From an uncultured Pseudomonadota bacterium (GTDB lineage Bacteria; Myxococcota_A; UBA796; GCA-2862545): a stretch of 64,000 nt of DNA. Both the position numbers and the translations under genes were made by a program. Below are positions 6,770 to 13,451 of this stretch, one piece after another (position 1 is the first letter of the stretch; each line of letters opens with the position of its first letter). Under the pieces are notes generated by a model. It was not told the DNA's origin and made no database searches. It saw only the letters and a program-made list of their open reading frames with translations. The stretch is from positions 1-64,000 of the forward strand of contig CAIOSP010000014.1 of NCBI GenBank assembly GCA_903861005.1, written 5' to 3'.

Positions 6770-8554
6770 ATGCTGCGACGCGCTCGCGCCTTCGCGATCA
6801 CTGCCCTCGCCGGCCTGCTCGGCGCCACCACGGTGGCGCACGCTCAGGAAGGCCGTCTGAAGAACGGGTTCGATGGCGACATCGACCTGTTCCGTCCCAA
6901 CTTCGGCATCGAGGGGACGCTCCCCGGCATCGACGTCGCGCGCAATTGGCGCGGCGGCTCGGCCCGGTGGGGTCTGAACCTCATGTACAGCAACTCACCG
7001 CTGGTGCTGTACAAGTTCGACCAGGAGGTGGGATCGGTCATCAACAACCGCGTCTCCGCGTACCTGGGCGCCTCGGTCGACATCACGCGCGCGTTCACCG
7101 TGCGCATGACCGTCCCGGCCTACTTCCAGTTCGGCACCAACGTCCCGCAGCTGGCGTCTGAGGGCTTCGCCCTCGGCGACATCGGCGTCGGCGGCCACGG
7201 CATCTTCTTCAACAAGCCGAACGTGTCGTTGGGCCTGCGGGCGGACCTGTTCCTCCCCACCAGCCGCCACAACTTCTACGCCGGCGAGCGCATGCCCCAC
7301 ATCCAGGGCGCGCTGCTCACCACGTTTGATGTGGGCCGCGTGCGCATCGCGTCGGACTTGGGCGTGGACGGTCGCTTCAAGCTGATCGACACCAAGGACG
7401 ACCTCAAGCTCGGCACCGAGCTGATGTGGGACGCGGGCGTCCGCGTGAACGTGCTCCGCGAGAAGCTGGACATCGGCGCGTCGATCTACTCGCGCTTCGG
7501 CTTCACGCACTTCTTCGGCGCGGGCGAGTCCAGCGGCGAGGCCATGCTGACCGCGTCGTACCATGCCATGCCCTTCCTGGTGGTCGACGTGGGCGCGGGC
7601 CGCGGCTTCACCAAGGGCTACGGCTCCACCGACGTGCGCGCCTTCGCGCAGCTCAAGTTCCAGAAGCGTCACAAGGAGGTCGGCGAAGACGGCGCCGAGC
7701 TGACCGACGAGGACAAGGTCGTCGCGTGTGTGCACGCCTACGACAAGTGCATGGCCGACGGCATCGACCCGATGGTCTGCAAGGCCCAGCTTGACCAGTG
7801 CAAGGACGTGATCTTCCACGTGCGCACGGGCGGCACCACCATCACCGCGCCGCCGGACGCGCCGCTGACCGACGAGCAGGAGTGGGCCGATCCCAAGCAG
7901 GTCGTGCGCGTCACCAGCGACGGCCAGCAGCTGGAGATCCGCTTCGCCATCGAGTTCGAGAAGGACACGAACATCATCCGTCCTGACTCGCTGCCGGTCG
8001 TCGACGCGATCGCCGAGTTCCTGAACAACGACGCCCGCATCGCCCACCTCGTCATCGAAGGCCACGCCAGCCCCGACGGCGACGACGCGGTGAACTACCC
8101 GCTGTCGCAGAGCCGCGCGGGCAGCATCTGGGAGCGCCTGGTCACGGTCGGCGTGGTGCCTTCGCGCCTGTCCTACCGCGGCATGGGCGAGGTCATGCCC
8201 ATCCTGGGTCCGGACGGTGAGCCCGATCCGGTCAAGAGCCGCCGCGTCGTGTTCCACATCGTCCGCCAGTACGATCTGGCCTACGAGACGCCGCCCAAGT
8301 TCAAGGTCGACCTGCGCTACCCGTGGGACGGCCAGCCGTACACCGCGGTCCAGCCGCGCGTGCCGTCGGCGGACGAGGCCTCGGGTCTCGACCAGATCAT
8401 GCAGCGTCGCGACGTGAAGGAGGAGCCGGACACCCTTCAGGGCGTCCAGTTCGACAAGCCTGAGGACGAGGAAGACACCATTCCTCTCGACGACGGCTCC
8501 ACGCCGCCCCCCGACGCCCCGCCCGCGCAGACCCCTGCCGAGGAGCCCAAGTGA
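6770..8554 (+). CDS. Outer-membrane beta-barrel protein with C-terminal OmpA domain
   Basis: 594 aa. ATG at 6770 chosen because it begins a clean signal peptide (MLRRARAFAITALAG..., cut after VAHA); an earlier in-frame ATG lacks this. Residues to about 300 alternate as amphipathic beta strands with many Gly and aromatic residues, as in a porin-like barrel. A linker with paired cysteines follows (CVHAYDKCMADGIDPMVC, QLDQC). The OmpA peptidoglycan-binding domain runs from about residue 400 (IRPDSLPVVDAIAEFL, VIEGHASPDGDDAVNYPLSQSR, YRGMGE). The tail is Pro/Asp/Glu-rich. The stop overlaps the next start (TGATG), so it is translationally coupled to the TSP3 protein. It probably links the outer membrane to the cell wall. 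Confidence 0.9.
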   Translation: MLRRARAFAITALAGLLGATTVAHAQEGRLKNGFDGDIDLFRPNFGIEGTLPGIDVARNWRGGSARWGLNLMYSNSPLVLYKFDQEVGSVINNRVSAYLGASVDITRAFTVRMTVPAYFQFGTNVPQLASEGFALGDIGVGGHGIFFNKPNVSLGLRADLFLPTSRHNFYAGERMPHIQGALLTTFDVGRVRIASDLGVDGRFKLIDTKDDLKLGTELMWDAGVRVNVLREKLDIGASIYSRFGFTHFFGAGESSGEAMLTASYHAMPFLVVDVGAGRGFTKGYGSTDVRAFAQLKFQKRHKEVGEDGAELTDEDKVVACVHAYDKCMADGIDPMVCKAQLDQCKDVIFHVRTGGTTITAPPDAPLTDEQEWADPKQVVRVTSDGQQLEIRFAIEFEKDTNIIRPDSLPVVDAIAEFLNNDARIAHLVIEGHASPDGDDAVNYPLSQSRAGSIWERLVTVGVVPSRLSYRGMGEVMPILGPDGEPDPVKSRRVVFHIVRQYDLAYETPPKFKVDLRYPWDGQPYTAVQPRVPSADEASGLDQIMQRRDVKEEPDTLQGVQFDKPEDEEDTIPLDDGSTPPPDAPPAQTPAEEPK

Positions 8555-9912
8555 TGCGCGCCTCCACTCTGATGTCCGTGCTTGTCTTCTCCGCGATCGG
8601 CGGCTCGTCGGCCTACGCCGCGAGCTGCGCGCCGCCGGTGTTCCCGTTCTCCCTGGCCACGCGCCCGTGGCAGGACATGAACTGCAACTACGTCCCGGCG
8701 CCTATCGACCAGTGGACGACGCCCAAGACCAACCTGCCCGTGAGCTACACGGGCCCGCGCGAGGTCCCGGTCGACCTGTCGAACGCCGAGTGCGTGTCCA
8801 ACCTGGACAAGGTGATCGCGGGGACCAAGTACCCCAACGACACCAGCGACTACTACTACGACTACATCGACTACAAGTGCAAGTACCCGCTCAACGAGTT
8901 CGACGCGGACTTTGACGGCCTGTCGTTCGGCCAGATCGAGCTGCTCACCGACCCGAACGCGACCACGCCGTACCTGACCATCGTCATGGACTGCGACAAC
9001 TGCGCGGACGACTTCAACCCGGATCAGGCCGACGAGGACTGCGACTTCGCGGGCGACGTCTGCGACAACTGCCCGGGCCTGGCCAACGACGATCAGGCGA
9101 ACGGCGACGAGGACGTGCTCGGTGACGCCTGCGACAACTGCCCTGACGTCACCACGCCGATCGACCCGAACACCGGCCTGCCGGATCAGGCCGACAGCGA
9201 CGGCGACAACGTGGGCGACGCGTGCGACGTGTGCGTGGACTTCCCGGACCCCGACCAGGACGACGCGGACGACGATGGCTTTGGCGACGGGTGCGACAAC
9301 TGCCCCACGCTGACCAACGCCGACCAGGCCGACCGTGACCAGGACGGCGTCGGCGACCTGTGCGACAACTGCCCGTACGACGGCCGCTCCGCCGACCAGA
9401 CCGACTCCGACGCGGACGGCCTGGGCGACGTGTGCGACAACTGCGCGTTCATCTCCAACGCGCCCGCCGTGACCGACCCGCCCACGCCGCAGCCGGACAT
9501 CGACCTCGACGGCGTCGGCGACGTATGCGACATCTGCCCCGAGAACCCGGACGCGGACCAGGAAGACGGCGACTTCGACGGCCTCGGCAACGCGTGCGAC
9601 GACTGCCCCACCGAGACCAACCCGCAGCAGGAGGACGCCGACCTCGACGGCGTCGGCGACCTGTGCGACATCTGCCCGACACAGACGGACCCCGACCAGC
9701 TCGACGGCGACGGCGACGGCCTGGGCGACGTGTGCGACAACTGCCCGGACGACCCCAACGCGGAGCAGGTCGACGCCGACGAAGACGGCATCGGCGACCC
9801 CTGTGACCTGGATCGCCTCCGCGGCGGCGGCTGTGTGCAGGCCGACGTCAACACGCTCTGGCCGGTCAGCCTGTTCGCGCTGCTCGGCCTGCGCCGGCGG
9901 CGTCGCGCCTAG
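8554..9912 (+). CDS. Secreted thrombospondin type-3 repeat protein with MYXO-CTERM-like tail
   Basis: 452 aa. Signal peptide MRASTLMSVLVFSAIGGSSA followed by AYAAS. An N-terminal domain of about 120 residues contains Cys and a Tyr-rich stretch (DYYYDYIDYKCKY). Eleven TSP3 units follow, each with CDxC and DxDxDG-type loops that bind calcium in this family. The C-terminus is a Cys, a hydrophobic stretch and an Arg cluster (GGGCVQAD...SLFALLGLRRRRRA), as in the MYXO-CTERM sorting signal of Myxococcota, so I expect a surface-anchored protein. It overlaps the barrel gene by one base. TSP3 repeats are often fused to OmpA proteins; here the two parts are separate, coupled genes. Confidence 0.88.
   Translation: MRASTLMSVLVFSAIGGSSAYAASCAPPVFPFSLATRPWQDMNCNYVPAPIDQWTTPKTNLPVSYTGPREVPVDLSNAECVSNLDKVIAGTKYPNDTSDYYYDYIDYKCKYPLNEFDADFDGLSFGQIELLTDPNATTPYLTIVMDCDNCADDFNPDQADEDCDFAGDVCDNCPGLANDDQANGDEDVLGDACDNCPDVTTPIDPNTGLPDQADSDGDNVGDACDVCVDFPDPDQDDADDDGFGDGCDNCPTLTNADQADRDQDGVGDLCDNCPYDGRSADQTDSDADGLGDVCDNCAFISNAPAVTDPPTPQPDIDLDGVGDVCDICPENPDADQEDGDFDGLGNACDDCPTETNPQQEDADLDGVGDLCDICPTQTDPDQLDGDGDGLGDVCDNCPDDPNAEQVDADEDGIGDPCDLDRLRGGGCVQADVNTLWPVSLFALLGLRRRRRA
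8992..9813 (+). repeat. TSP3 repeat array (11 CDxC units)
   Basis: Tandem coding repeats with spacing of about 21-30 codons, each ending in CDNC or CDIC/CDVC/CDDC and carrying DQxDxDxDGxGD. The units have diverged at the DNA level but keep the Asp and Cys positions. Confidence 0.85.
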
Positions 9913-9975: not shown

Positions 9976-11070
9976 ATGTCGAAGCTGGAGTCGCTGCGCG
10001 CTGAGCTGTCCGCCCTGGACCGTGACATCCTGGCGGCCGTGGCGCGGCGCACCGAGATCAGCCTGGAGATCGGCCGGGCCAAGCAGGACCTCGGGTTCGG
10101 CACGCGAGACTTCGCCCGCGAGAAGGTGGTTCTGGACCGTGCGCACGCCGCCGCGGTCGAGCTCGGCATCAGCCCCGCGCTCGCCGAGCGCCTCACGCTC
10201 ATGCTCATCCAGGCGTCGCTCTCCGCGCAGGAGCAGCACCGCGTGGCGCAGACCAACACCGGCAGCGGTCGACGCGCGCTGGTGATCGGCGGCGCGGGCA
10301 AGATGGGCCGGTGGTTCGCCGGCTTCCTGGCCGCGCAGGGCTTCGGCGTCACCGTGGCGGACCCCCTCCCTGGCCCGGACGGCGTCGAGCGCGTCGAGGA
10401 CTGGCGCTCGCTCGATCTCGACCATGACCTCATCGTCGTGGCCGCCCCGCTGCACGCCACCAACGACGTGCTGCACGAGCTGGCCCGGCGCGCGCCGAAC
10501 GGCGTCGTGTTCGACGTCGGCTCGCTCAAGACGCCGCTGCGCTCCGGCCTGATCGCCCTGCGCGACGCCGGCGTGCGCGTCACGTCGGTCCACCCCATGT
10601 TCGGCCCGGACACCAGCCTGCTGTCGGGCCGCCACGTGATCTTCGTCGACCTGGGCGTGCCCGAGGCCACCGCGGTCGCCCGCACGCTGTTCGCCGCCAC
10701 CATGGCCGAGCTCGCGGACATGGACCTGGACACGCACGATCGCCTGATCGCGTTTGTCCTGGGCCTGTCGCACGCGGTCAACCTGGCGTTCAACGACGCG
10801 CTCGCCGCGTCCGGCGCCGACCTGCCCATGCTGGCGCGCATCTCCTCCACCACGTTCGACGCGCAGCTGGACGTGTCGTCCCGCGTGGCGCAGGAGAACC
10901 CCCGCCTGTACTTCGAGATCCAGGCGCAGAACGCCTACGGCGACACCTCGCTGGCGGCCTTGGAGCGCTCGGTGGAGCGCCTCCGCGAGCTGGTGTCGCG
11001 CCAGGACGAGGCCGGCTTTGTGCAGCTCATGACCGCGGGCCGCGACTACGTGAACGCCCGGCGTCGGTAG
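9976..11070 (+). CDS. tyrA: Chorismate mutase-prephenate dehydrogenase (bifunctional)
   Basis: 364 aa, close to the 373 of E. coli TyrA. Residues 1-90 form an AroQ-type chorismate mutase with the expected LR, ARR, AK, REK and Q positions. Residues 100-364 are an NAD-dependent prephenate dehydrogenase: VIGGAGKMGRWFAGFL (Rossmann loop), DVGSLK, and HPMFGPD with the catalytic His. It converts chorismate through prephenate to 4-hydroxyphenylpyruvate for tyrosine synthesis in the cytosol. GGAGG five bases upstream fixes the start. No other aromatic-pathway gene is adjacent. The arrangement matches the enterobacterial T-protein rather than the usual stand-alone dehydrogenase. Confidence 0.93.
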   Translation: MSKLESLRAELSALDRDILAAVARRTEISLEIGRAKQDLGFGTRDFAREKVVLDRAHAAAVELGISPALAERLTLMLIQASLSAQEQHRVAQTNTGSGRRALVIGGAGKMGRWFAGFLAAQGFGVTVADPLPGPDGVERVEDWRSLDLDHDLIVVAAPLHATNDVLHELARRAPNGVVFDVGSLKTPLRSGLIALRDAGVRVTSVHPMFGPDTSLLSGRHVIFVDLGVPEATAVARTLFAATMAELADMDLDTHDRLIAFVLGLSHAVNLAFNDALAASGADLPMLARISSTTFDAQLDVSSRVAQENPRLYFEIQAQNAYGDTSLAALERSVERLRELVSRQDEAGFVQLMTAGRDYVNARRR

Positions 11071-11174: not shown

Positions 11175-12023
11175 GTGCAGCGCATCGCGTTCTACGGAAA
11201 GGGTGGCATCGGCAAGTCGACGATCGCCACCGGCGTCAGCCTCTACTACGCGCAGAGCGGCCGCCGCGTGCTCCACGTCGGGTGTGACCCCAAGGCCGAC
11301 TCGTCGATGGTGCTCGTGCGCGACGACACCTACAAGACCGTGATCCAGAAGTCGTTTGAGATCGATCCCGACGATCTGGTCGCGTCCGACCTGATCATGA
11401 AGGGCATCCTCGGCATCGACTGCATCGAGTCCGGCGGCCCCGAGGCCGGCATCGGCTGCGGCGGTCGGGCCGTGTCCAAGTCCTTCGAGATCTTCGACGA
11501 GCTCAAGGTGATCGACGAGGCGCTTTACGACGTCACCACGTTTGACGTGCTCGGCGACGTGGTGTGCGGCGGGTTCGCAGCACCCATGCGCAACGCGGCG
11601 CGCTCCAAGGTGGCCGTGGTCCTGTCCGAAGAGATGATGGCGAACTTTGCCGCCAACAACATCGCGCGCGCCTGCAAGCGCTACGCCGACAACGGCATCT
11701 GCCTGGCCGGCTTCGTGGTGAACCTGCGCAGCAACGAGGCGGACATCTCGCCCATCCAGCGCTTCGCGGACGCCATCGGCACCAAGATCCTCCAGGTGAT
11801 CCCGCGTGACCCGCGCGTCGGCGAGGCGGAGCTGTTCCGCAAGTCCATCCTTGAGTACGACCCCGACTCGCCCGTCTCAGTCGCCATCCGCGAGTTGGCC
11901 GAGAAGCTGCTCGCGCTCGACCCCAAGACCTGCCCGATCCCCGAGCCGCTTGAGGGCGACTCCGTGCGCGACGTCATGCGCGGACCGATGCGCATCGAGC
12001 AGTTCGTGCGCGCCACCGGCTAG
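11175..12023 (+). CDS. NifH-like Fe-S ATPase (orphan nitrogenase reductase homolog)
   Basis: 282 aa. GTG at 11175 chosen: GGAG lies five bases upstream, and the P-loop then starts at residue 8 as in NifH. Key features are GKGGIGKST (8-16), GCDPKADS, ESGGPEAGIGCGGR with Cys95 and Arg98, and VLGDVVCGGF with Cys131. The two cysteines match those that bridge the 4Fe-4S cluster in the Fe-protein dimer. EEMMANFAANNIARACKRY and ILEYDPDS are closer to NifH than to remembered BchL or BchX sequences. The family transfers electrons in an ATP-driven way to a NifDK, BchNB, BchYZ, CfbD or NflD partner. No such partner is encoded in this window, so the acceptor is unknown. TACACT near 11123 may be a -10 element. 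Confidence 0.9.
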   Translation: MQRIAFYGKGGIGKSTIATGVSLYYAQSGRRVLHVGCDPKADSSMVLVRDDTYKTVIQKSFEIDPDDLVASDLIMKGILGIDCIESGGPEAGIGCGGRAVSKSFEIFDELKVIDEALYDVTTFDVLGDVVCGGFAAPMRNAARSKVAVVLSEEMMANFAANNIARACKRYADNGICLAGFVVNLRSNEADISPIQRFADAIGTKILQVIPRDPRVGEAELFRKSILEYDPDSPVSVAIRELAEKLLALDPKTCPIPEPLEGDSVRDVMRGPMRIEQFVRATG

Positions 12024-12093: not shown

Positions 12094-13302
12094 CTAGCGC
12101 GCCCGCTCCAGCCGCCCTGTCCAGAGCCCCACGACGCCCATGACCAGCAGCGCCTCGATCAGGACCTGGGTCGCGACGCCGGCCGGGTGCGCGCGGAAGG
12201 TGGCCGAGTCCACCCCGACGGACTCGTGGAAGGCGCGCCAGGCCACGACGCAGAGCAGGATGACCGCCGCGTAGAGCAGCGGGCCGAGCCACAGCGAGCG
12301 CACCGTGTACCGGGTGCGCTTGGGGGCCACGAGCCACTCGCCCACGACCAGCACGCCGGACGCCAGCGCGCCGGGCAGCCACAGCACCAGGGCCAGCGCC
12401 AGCTGCGGGCCGAAGGTGCGCGCGATCAGCCCGTTCTGCGAGTGGCGGAGGACGTCGCCGGCCATCGCCAAGCCAATCGCCAGCCCGAAGTAGACGGCGA
12501 GCATCGACGAGACCAGCAGCACGCCCCGCTGCTCACGTCCCTTGTTCCACGTCCGCAGCGTGCCACGCAGGGGCTCGAGCGCAGACTTCATCGGCGCCAC
12601 GGCCTCCACCAAGGCGCGCGTCATGACCTGCTCCGCGCTCTGGCCTTGGGGTGCGCGACGCTCGTCCGCGGCTCGTACGGACTCGTCGCGACGCGACTGC
12701 GCGGTCGCCGACGCGCTCGACCGCAGGGAGGCCATCGACGCGGTGGACATCGACGCCTCGGCGGGCTCGATGGCGTCGAACGCGCTGCCGAGCACCCGCG
12801 CGCGCAGCGCGAGGTCATGTGGGGCGACACCGGACTCAGCATCGGGCACGGGCACCAGCCGGAGCAAGTTCGTGGCACGGCGCAGCTGCCTGGAGTCGGC
12901 GTAAGACAGCACGAGCGCGCGCTGAAGCGAGGCGCGCTCCCGGGGGCGCTCTGACAGTGGCAGCAAGCCCAACCCGAGGACCGCCGCCTCAAGCCACGTG
13001 GCACCTTCCTCTGGCCGCTCGCCCGAGAGCGCCAGGAACAGGCCGCACAGCGAAATGTAGCGGAAGTCCTGCACGCGCTCGTTCACCGCGGTGACGGCTT
13101 GGTCGCAGGCCAGGTCCACCTTGCCGTGCGTCCACGCGTAGGCCGCCTCCAAGAACCGACCGCGCGCCTCGCCACGCAGGTCCGGCGGCAGGGCCTCCAG
13201 CAGCTGCTTCGCCTCGGACAGCGAGCTGCCCTGAGGCTGCCGCGCCGATCCGCGAGAGGTGGTCAACCACAGCTCCCATGACTCGCTCCATCCCAGTGAC
13301 AT
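12094..13302 (-). CDS. Membrane protein with helical N-terminal half
   Basis: 402 aa, function not recognised. ATG at 13302 has GGGGGGAT just upstream; extending further adds an unlikely Gly/Pro segment. Residues 1-250 are soluble and helical with TPR-like spacing (RGEARGRFLEAAYAWTHGK, LCGLFLALSGERPEEGATWL). Four hydrophobic helices follow (around VSSMLAVYFGLAIGLAMAG, LALALVLWLPGALASGV, LLYAAVILLCVVAW, LIEALLVMGVVGLW). I expect an inner-membrane protein with a cytosolic repeat domain. It converges on the NifH-like gene with a 70-bp gap. A C10 tract and a hairpin lie in its leader. Confidence 0.78.
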   Translation of the reverse strand: MSLGWSESWELWLTTSRGSARQPQGSSLSEAKQLLEALPPDLRGEARGRFLEAAYAWTHGKVDLACDQAVTAVNERVQDFRYISLCGLFLALSGERPEEGATWLEAAVLGLGLLPLSERPRERASLQRALVLSYADSRQLRRATNLLRLVPVPDAESGVAPHDLALRARVLGSAFDAIEPAEASMSTASMASLRSSASATAQSRRDESVRAADERRAPQGQSAEQVMTRALVEAVAPMKSALEPLRGTLRTWNKGREQRGVLLVSSMLAVYFGLAIGLAMAGDVLRHSQNGLIARTFGPQLALALVLWLPGALASGVLVVGEWLVAPKRTRYTVRSLWLGPLLYAAVILLCVVAWRAFHESVGVDSATFRAHPAGVATQVLIEALLVMGVVGLWTGRLERAR

Positions 13303-13368
13303 GATCCCCCCAGACGCACCGGCTCCAGCCGGTACTCGAGGAGATGAACGCGCAAACAATCCAGGGGG

Positions 13369-13399
13369 AAGGGTGTGGATTGTCGGACCACCCACCCTT
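13369..13399 (-). terminator. Imperfect hairpin downstream of the valS-lgt operon
   Basis: AAGGGTGTGG (13369-13378) pairs with CCACCCACCCTT (13388-13399) with a two-base bulge, 52 bp past the stop of the last operon gene. A run of ten C (13401-13410) flanks it. It could end the operon or lie in the leader of the next leftward gene. Confidence 0.4.
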
Positions 13400-13451
13400 A
13401 CCCCCCCCCCGAGCGGGTGGATTTGGCGCCCCACCCGCCGCGCTGGGACGC

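Follow-up and report, generated by a model that had tools for sequence, protein, structure and literature searches.

The NifH-like gene and its surroundings

Positions 11175 to 12023 of the window (the whole stretch of DNA analysed, 64,000 nucleotides in length) hold a plus-strand gene for a NifH-like Fe-S ATPase, hereafter H. The gene begins with a GTG start codon, its stop codon ends at 12023 and its product is 282 amino acids long. The protein carries the P-loop GKGGIGKS (residues 8–15; 11196 to 11219), a first cluster cysteine, C95, within GCGGRA, a second cluster cysteine, C131, within VVCGGF (11565 to 11567) and the NifH-type segment EEMMANFAANNI (residues 152–163; 11628 to 11663), all on the plus strand and with both cysteines aligned to solved NifH. 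The motif CGGR (11457 to 11468) that begins with C95 also contains R98, three residues beyond the cysteine, which occupies the position of the ADP-ribosylatable arginine of NifH. These motifs, including an arginine after the first cysteine, had been listed in an earlier note on this DNA and every one was recovered in the translation. The Pfam family PF00142 (Fer4_NifH) gives H a score of 262 bits (E 8e-78), well outside what chance would produce, and the closest solved structures are nitrogenase iron proteins at approximately 200 bits. By its P-loop, its two cluster cysteines and its PF00142 match, H is an Fe-S ATPase of the NifH superfamily in the broad sense.

The upstream neighbour of H is tyrA, which encodes a chorismate mutase/prephenate dehydrogenase (9976 to 11070, plus strand), as had been described earlier. 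The downstream flank, then called a membrane protein, is a convergent ORF (12094 to 13434, minus strand) that is membrane-like by eye and has no match to a Pfam family. Upstream of tyrA, positions 8551-9912 of the window encode a thrombospondin type-3 repeat protein rich in calcium-binding-like DxDxDG repeats. All genomes compared are fragmentary MAGs, and the genome of the window is designated G000. A genome of the same genus, G118, carries H at 99% protein identity in an identical gene order. The codons of the two copies differ at 26 synonymous and 3 non-synonymous sites (pN/pS 0.037), and this retention under purifying selection indicates that H is a maintained gene. Comparison of gene neighbourhoods, which had been suggested as a check, revealed tyrA beside H within the genus alone (G118) and another arrangement in G152 and G088. 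Thus, tyrA is probably unrelated to H, and a functional linkage between the two was rejected. The convergent ORF is probably unrelated to H as well.

Among the curated NCBIfam models, H attains its top score with nifH (TIGR01287; 251.9 bits, cut-off 394). The scores with CfbC (NF033200; 241 bits, cut-off 402), BchL (TIGR01281; 187 bits, cut-off 345) and BchX (TIGR02016; 151 bits, cut-off 331) are lower, and the shortfall exceeds 130 bits in each case. As all of these cut-offs are missed, H belongs to none of the NifH, CfbC, BchL and BchX families by the curators' standard. The phylogeny that the earlier note had proposed was built with NifH, BchL and BchX as references and without a CfbC sequence. 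In this tree, the window protein forms one clade with those of G118, G152 and G088 (support 100/100), which lies outside NifH and apart from the clades of BchL and BchX, within a radiation from the window's phylum and Elusimicrobia. Both the tree and the family scores exclude a tight placement inside BchL or BchX with matching partners, which the earlier note had named as the refuting case. The inclusion of the stand-alone Elusimicrobia H genes in the window's clade was rejected by an AU test (p 0.008). Relatives of H occur in 43 of the 379 sampled genomes of the phylum. Five of these were set apart as BchL/BchX carriers, three by tree placement (G139, G212, G213) and two by similar scores and a two-copy pattern (G187, G349), leaving 38 genomes with a non-Bch H.

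Partner pairs and their cluster site

H had been called an orphan, as no NifD/K-type partner is encoded within 64 kb. This holds for the window, where no PF00148 match occurs, and does not hold for the genome: the suggested genome-wide search returned exactly two NifD/NifK-like pairs, both on other contigs. The first, D1K1, lies on contig C170, and the second, D2K2, is located at the end of contig C189 and continues on C6. The ends of C189 and C6 share an exact 141-bp overlap, through which K2 runs to its full 465 amino acids. The contigs of the pairs match the window in composition, with a GC of 0.70–0.71 and a tetranucleotide correlation (r) of 0.97 or more. No second NifH-type protein was found with PF00142 in the 5.8 Mb assembly, the search returning only short, distant P-loop matches. 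H is therefore the only candidate donor for both pairs. Against the curated families, D1, K1, D2 and K2 reach best scores of approximately 35–58 bits, nowhere near the cut-offs. Both of the options offered in the earlier note, a partner elsewhere and an undescribed reductase, appear to hold, given that two pairs lie on other contigs and that H and DK stay under the cut-offs of all characterised families.

NifB is absent from the genome, which argues against a FeMo-co enzyme. The top score of H with the nifH model could suggest an ordinary nitrogen-fixation, photosynthesis or F430 gene. The missed cut-offs, the separate clade, the absence of NifB and the lack of a match between the DK pairs and any such family leave this reading with a negligible probability, and H probably supplies electrons to a nitrogenase-like enzyme of a little-known kind.

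Within the window's order, DK genes of the D1/D2 clade are present in three of the four H-clade genomes (G000, G152 and G088), and none were seen in order members without H. In G088, H and the C-terminal part of K reside on one contig, approximately 7.5 kb apart. G118 carries H and Hxs genes with no DK detected; this genome is 85% complete, and its Hxs contig breaks off directly short of the part in which G000 carries D2K2. Among the genomes with a non-Bch H that were tested for PF00148, G118 is the only one without matches. That H reduces the DK pairs is, as a matter of judgement rather than computation, highly probable.

In the D tree, proteins of G000 and G152 form a D1 lineage and those of G000 and G088 a D2 lineage, next to a sister protein from Elusimicrobia (100/98). 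A scan with the D alignment returned 13 loci, from MAGs labelled Deltaproteobacteria, Myxococcota, Myxococcales, Oligoflexales, Elusimicrobia or simply "bacterium". In a joint tree with BchN and BchY, the deep placement of D is not firm because of long branches.

A range of other arrangements was noted in the genomes surveyed. One MAG of the same phylum (G211; loci L064, L071-L074, L122) has 30 PF00148 matches, an unusually large expansion. Genomes of family f17 (L052, L054, L058, L077, L086) share a recurrent operon of H, D', K' and a radical-SAM gene, in which D' has an extra N-terminal region of approximately 200 amino acids that also seems, by eye, to be present in the large radical-SAM protein. 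At five loci (L061, L062, L064, L065, L032), H stands beside a single D/K-like gene of approximately 357 amino acids, a gene content like that of CfbC-CfbD. In an Elusimicrobia MAG (L099, 1-3464), a D gene lies downstream of genes that are NifS-like and NifU-like by eye, which suggests a dedicated Fe-S supply. A CaiB/BaiF-type CoA-transferase gene (by eye) adjoins a D-K pair in G031 (L077, 7428-9998).

Three cysteines are kept in all 13 aligned D proteins, on the columns of the BchN and BchY cluster cysteines, and one cysteine is kept in nine K proteins, where BchZ has C35 and BchB has D36. The D cysteines align with NifD C62, C88 and C154 (A. vinelandii numbering) and the K cysteine with NifK C95; against Rhizobium NifD/NifK, they match the P-cluster cysteines. 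In a second alignment, which included Rhizobium NifD, the first BchY cysteine is off the D column, with BchN and NifD on it. At the FeMo-co ligand positions, eight aligned D proteins have Asp in place of Cys, and Arg or Gly in place of His. Judged from these alignments, the putative cluster site of DK is COR-like in pattern, with three cysteines from D and one from K at the BchY/BchZ positions.

For the AlphaFold2 model of D1 (pLDDT 82.6), the list of PDB matches is topped by nitrogenase component-1 folds, the first being NifE and methylthio-alkane reductase, and the best solved relative of the K profile is methylthio-alkane reductase K. NifEN likewise has a three-plus-one arrangement of cysteines. 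DK could be a NifEN-like scaffold that builds a metal cluster for another metalloenzyme, with H as its maturase partner, as NifE or NifEN ranks first or second among the solved relatives of D and K in both sequence and fold. This is very improbable in a genome without NifB and with Asp in D at the cofactor cysteine of NifE and NifD. Assignment of H to nitrogenase, DPOR, COR, F430 synthesis or Isr was rejected on the scores, the tree, the absence of NifB and the cysteine pattern.

The His-Xaa-Ser peptide cluster and the proposed reaction

The genes of D2 and K2 overlap, and K2 in turn overlaps a radical-SAM gene. At its other end, C6 is joined to contig C93 by an exact overlap, again of 141 bp, giving the order C93-C6-C189. 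Along C93, radical-SAM genes, HxsA4, HxsB, HxsD and more radical-SAM genes follow in one direction up to the join. HxsA4, an SHG-repeat protein, scores 194 bits (cut-off 55), HxsB 461 bits (cut-off 370) and HxsD 58 bits (cut-off 50), all above the curated cut-offs; a His-Xaa-Ser system is the neighbour of D2K2, with approximately 10 kb between HxsB and K2. HxsC-type radical-SAM genes are also present in the cluster, under the HxsC cut-off. C6 contributes a gene for a HExxH peptide-hydroxylase-like protein (85 bits, cut-off 40), with the last gene of C93 on one side and the D2K2 radical-SAM gene on the other. A histidine-rich peptide appears to be the target of the radical-enzyme cluster around D2K2. 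Hxs genes do not lie near D1K1, so that H may serve two different reactions. A second HxsB of the window's genome (C73; L174, 9173-10681) lies away from nitrogenase-like genes.

The proximity of DK and Hxs genes recurs in two Elusimicrobia genomes (G380, G379) and in G203 of the window's phylum. One strand of G380 contig C169 reads D'-K'-unknown-HxsD-HxsB-HxsA4, with every Hxs protein above its cut-off. On C151 of the same genome, H is followed, approximately 13 bp on, by two genes homologous to radical-SAM genes of C93 (246 and 276 bits). In G379, contig C85 carries K'-D'-K' and then homologs of three C93 radical-SAM genes, and contig C20 carries HxsD-HxsB-HxsA4 approximately 2–3 kb from a divergent D'K', with HxsA4 and HxsB above cut-off. 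In G203, a K gene adjoins HxsD-HxsB and a radical-SAM gene. The Elusimicrobia H proteins and most of the Hxs-linked D'K' belong to other subclades than those of the window.

HxsB is present in 35 of the 38 genomes with a non-Bch H and in 91 of the 341 others (Fisher p 1.7e-15, uncorrected for relatedness, with several families contributing many genomes each). The three non-Bch-H genomes without HxsB are 86, 68 and 58% complete; G152, with a D1-type pair and no HxsB, is 86% complete. HxsB is much commoner than H (126/379 genomes), and where a genome has several DK loci it mostly lies on another contig. Three related genomes (G044, G309, G325) carry the Hxs/radical-SAM cluster without H or DK, and DK is therefore not required for the Hxs system. 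The proposal that the radical-SAM battery depends on DK was rejected, as relatives have the battery without H and DK.

The current proposal is that H acts as the ATP-dependent iron protein, or reductase component, of a nitrogenase-like enzyme, as a homodimer with one bridging [4Fe-4S] cluster. Its catalytic partners would be the unlinked D1K1 (C170) and D2K2 (C189/C6), each holding a [4Fe-4S] cluster and no FeMo-co at the DK interface, ligated by three cysteines from D and a single one from K. With every docking event, driven by ATP, H would hand this cluster a low-potential electron, which would then move on to an organic substrate in the cavity of DK. In the case of D2K2, this substrate would most likely be an HxsA4-type ribosomal peptide or an intermediate from the adjoining radical-SAM enzymes. 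The fold, the cysteine pattern, the existence of the partners, the linkage of the genes and their co-occurrence come from computation; the transfer of electrons from H to both pairs and the substrate are inferred. This reading as a whole is given slightly better than an even chance. That D2K2 acts on an HxsA4-type peptide is given an even chance or slightly less, again by judgement and not by calculation. A more tentative proposal, put somewhat below even, is that H, D2K2 and related proteins of the phylum and of Elusimicrobia use ATP to drive a reductive step as HxsA4 His-Xaa-Ser repeat peptides mature, alongside the radical-SAM battery and the HExxH hydroxylase.

H could instead feed the radical-SAM enzymes of the peptide cluster directly, with DK dispensable or acting elsewhere. 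The two radical-SAM genes that directly follow H in G380, with no DK gene beside them, would agree with this, as would G118, which has H and Hxs with DK undetected. However, G118 is incomplete and is the sole exception to the PF00148 matches of the tested non-Bch-H genomes, and no case in which an iron protein reduces a radical-SAM enzyme is known to us. Such direct donation is improbable.

The main rival is tetrapyrrole reduction by H and DK, in the manner of DPOR and COR and perhaps for a new cofactor, the Hxs linkage being secondary. It holds this rank because a proposal of this kind is already published for the group VI homologs of Elusimicrobiota, which a passage of PMC11257099 describes as potentially involved in tetrapyrrole modification. 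The cluster ligand pattern of DK is that of COR (BchYZ), the radical-SAM neighbours have weak scores with the AhbD and NirJ models, and a protoporphyrinogen-oxidase-like gene (by eye) adjoins one DK pair in G211. Nonetheless, the AhbD and NirJ scores lie far under the cut-offs and reflect generic radical-SAM similarity. No tetrapyrrole biosynthesis gene was seen beside H or DK in G000, G152, G088, G379 and G380, and the nearest identifiable systems are HxsA4, HxsB and HxsD. Tetrapyrrole reduction is thus considered rather unlikely, and peptide-linked reduction by H and D2K2 is preferred.

Relation to known systems

To our knowledge, nitrogenase-like enzymes of known substrate reduce N2, tetrapyrroles or small sulfur compounds. 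In the literature searched, no nitrogenase-like component was found in Hxs or other peptide (RiPP) pathways. If true, the peptide-linked form would widen the chemistry of the nitrogenase superfamily, and the HxsA4 precursor offers a concrete, testable new substrate candidate for paralogs of open function. That a NifH-like gene without a nearby partner can be the sole donor for DK pairs far away is of consequence for surveys in which nifH serves as a marker of nitrogen fixation.

The family of H and DK is probably known in part already. Relatives of the window's DK and H occur in Elusimicrobia MAGs, and radical-SAM-rich loci and Myxococcales relatives are said to have been reported along with the Elusimicrobiota homologs. 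These group VI nitrogenase homologs (Meheust et al. 2020, as cited in PMC11257099 and PMC12057145) are, by the citing descriptions, likewise divergent nitrogenase paralogs. Compared with those descriptions, H in the window is unlinked from DK and forms its own subclade, and the HxsA4 linkage suggests a substrate other than the proposed tetrapyrrole.

COR (BchX-BchYZ) has three D-type cysteines and one K-type cysteine on the same columns, lacks FeMo-co ligands and uses a NifH-like donor. In contrast to COR, H is far from BchX, DK scores only approximately 19–28 bits with BchY/BchZ, and no photosynthesis genes were seen near H or DK. The Mar and Isr systems (MarBHDK, IsrBHDK; PMC11423573) are similar in that an H-D-K system works with a radical-SAM protein. 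Isr has one cluster cysteine on IsrD and three on IsrK, with isrBHDK in one gene cluster (PMC11423573), whereas here the arrangement is reversed, with three cysteines on D and one on K, which sets DK apart from Isr, and H is unlinked from DK. The Hxs system is matched by HxsA4, HxsB and HxsD above their cut-offs near D2K2, and by the same proteins beside D'K' in G380; the cluster of the window's genome differs from it in several added radical-SAM enzymes, each scoring under any equivalog cut-off.
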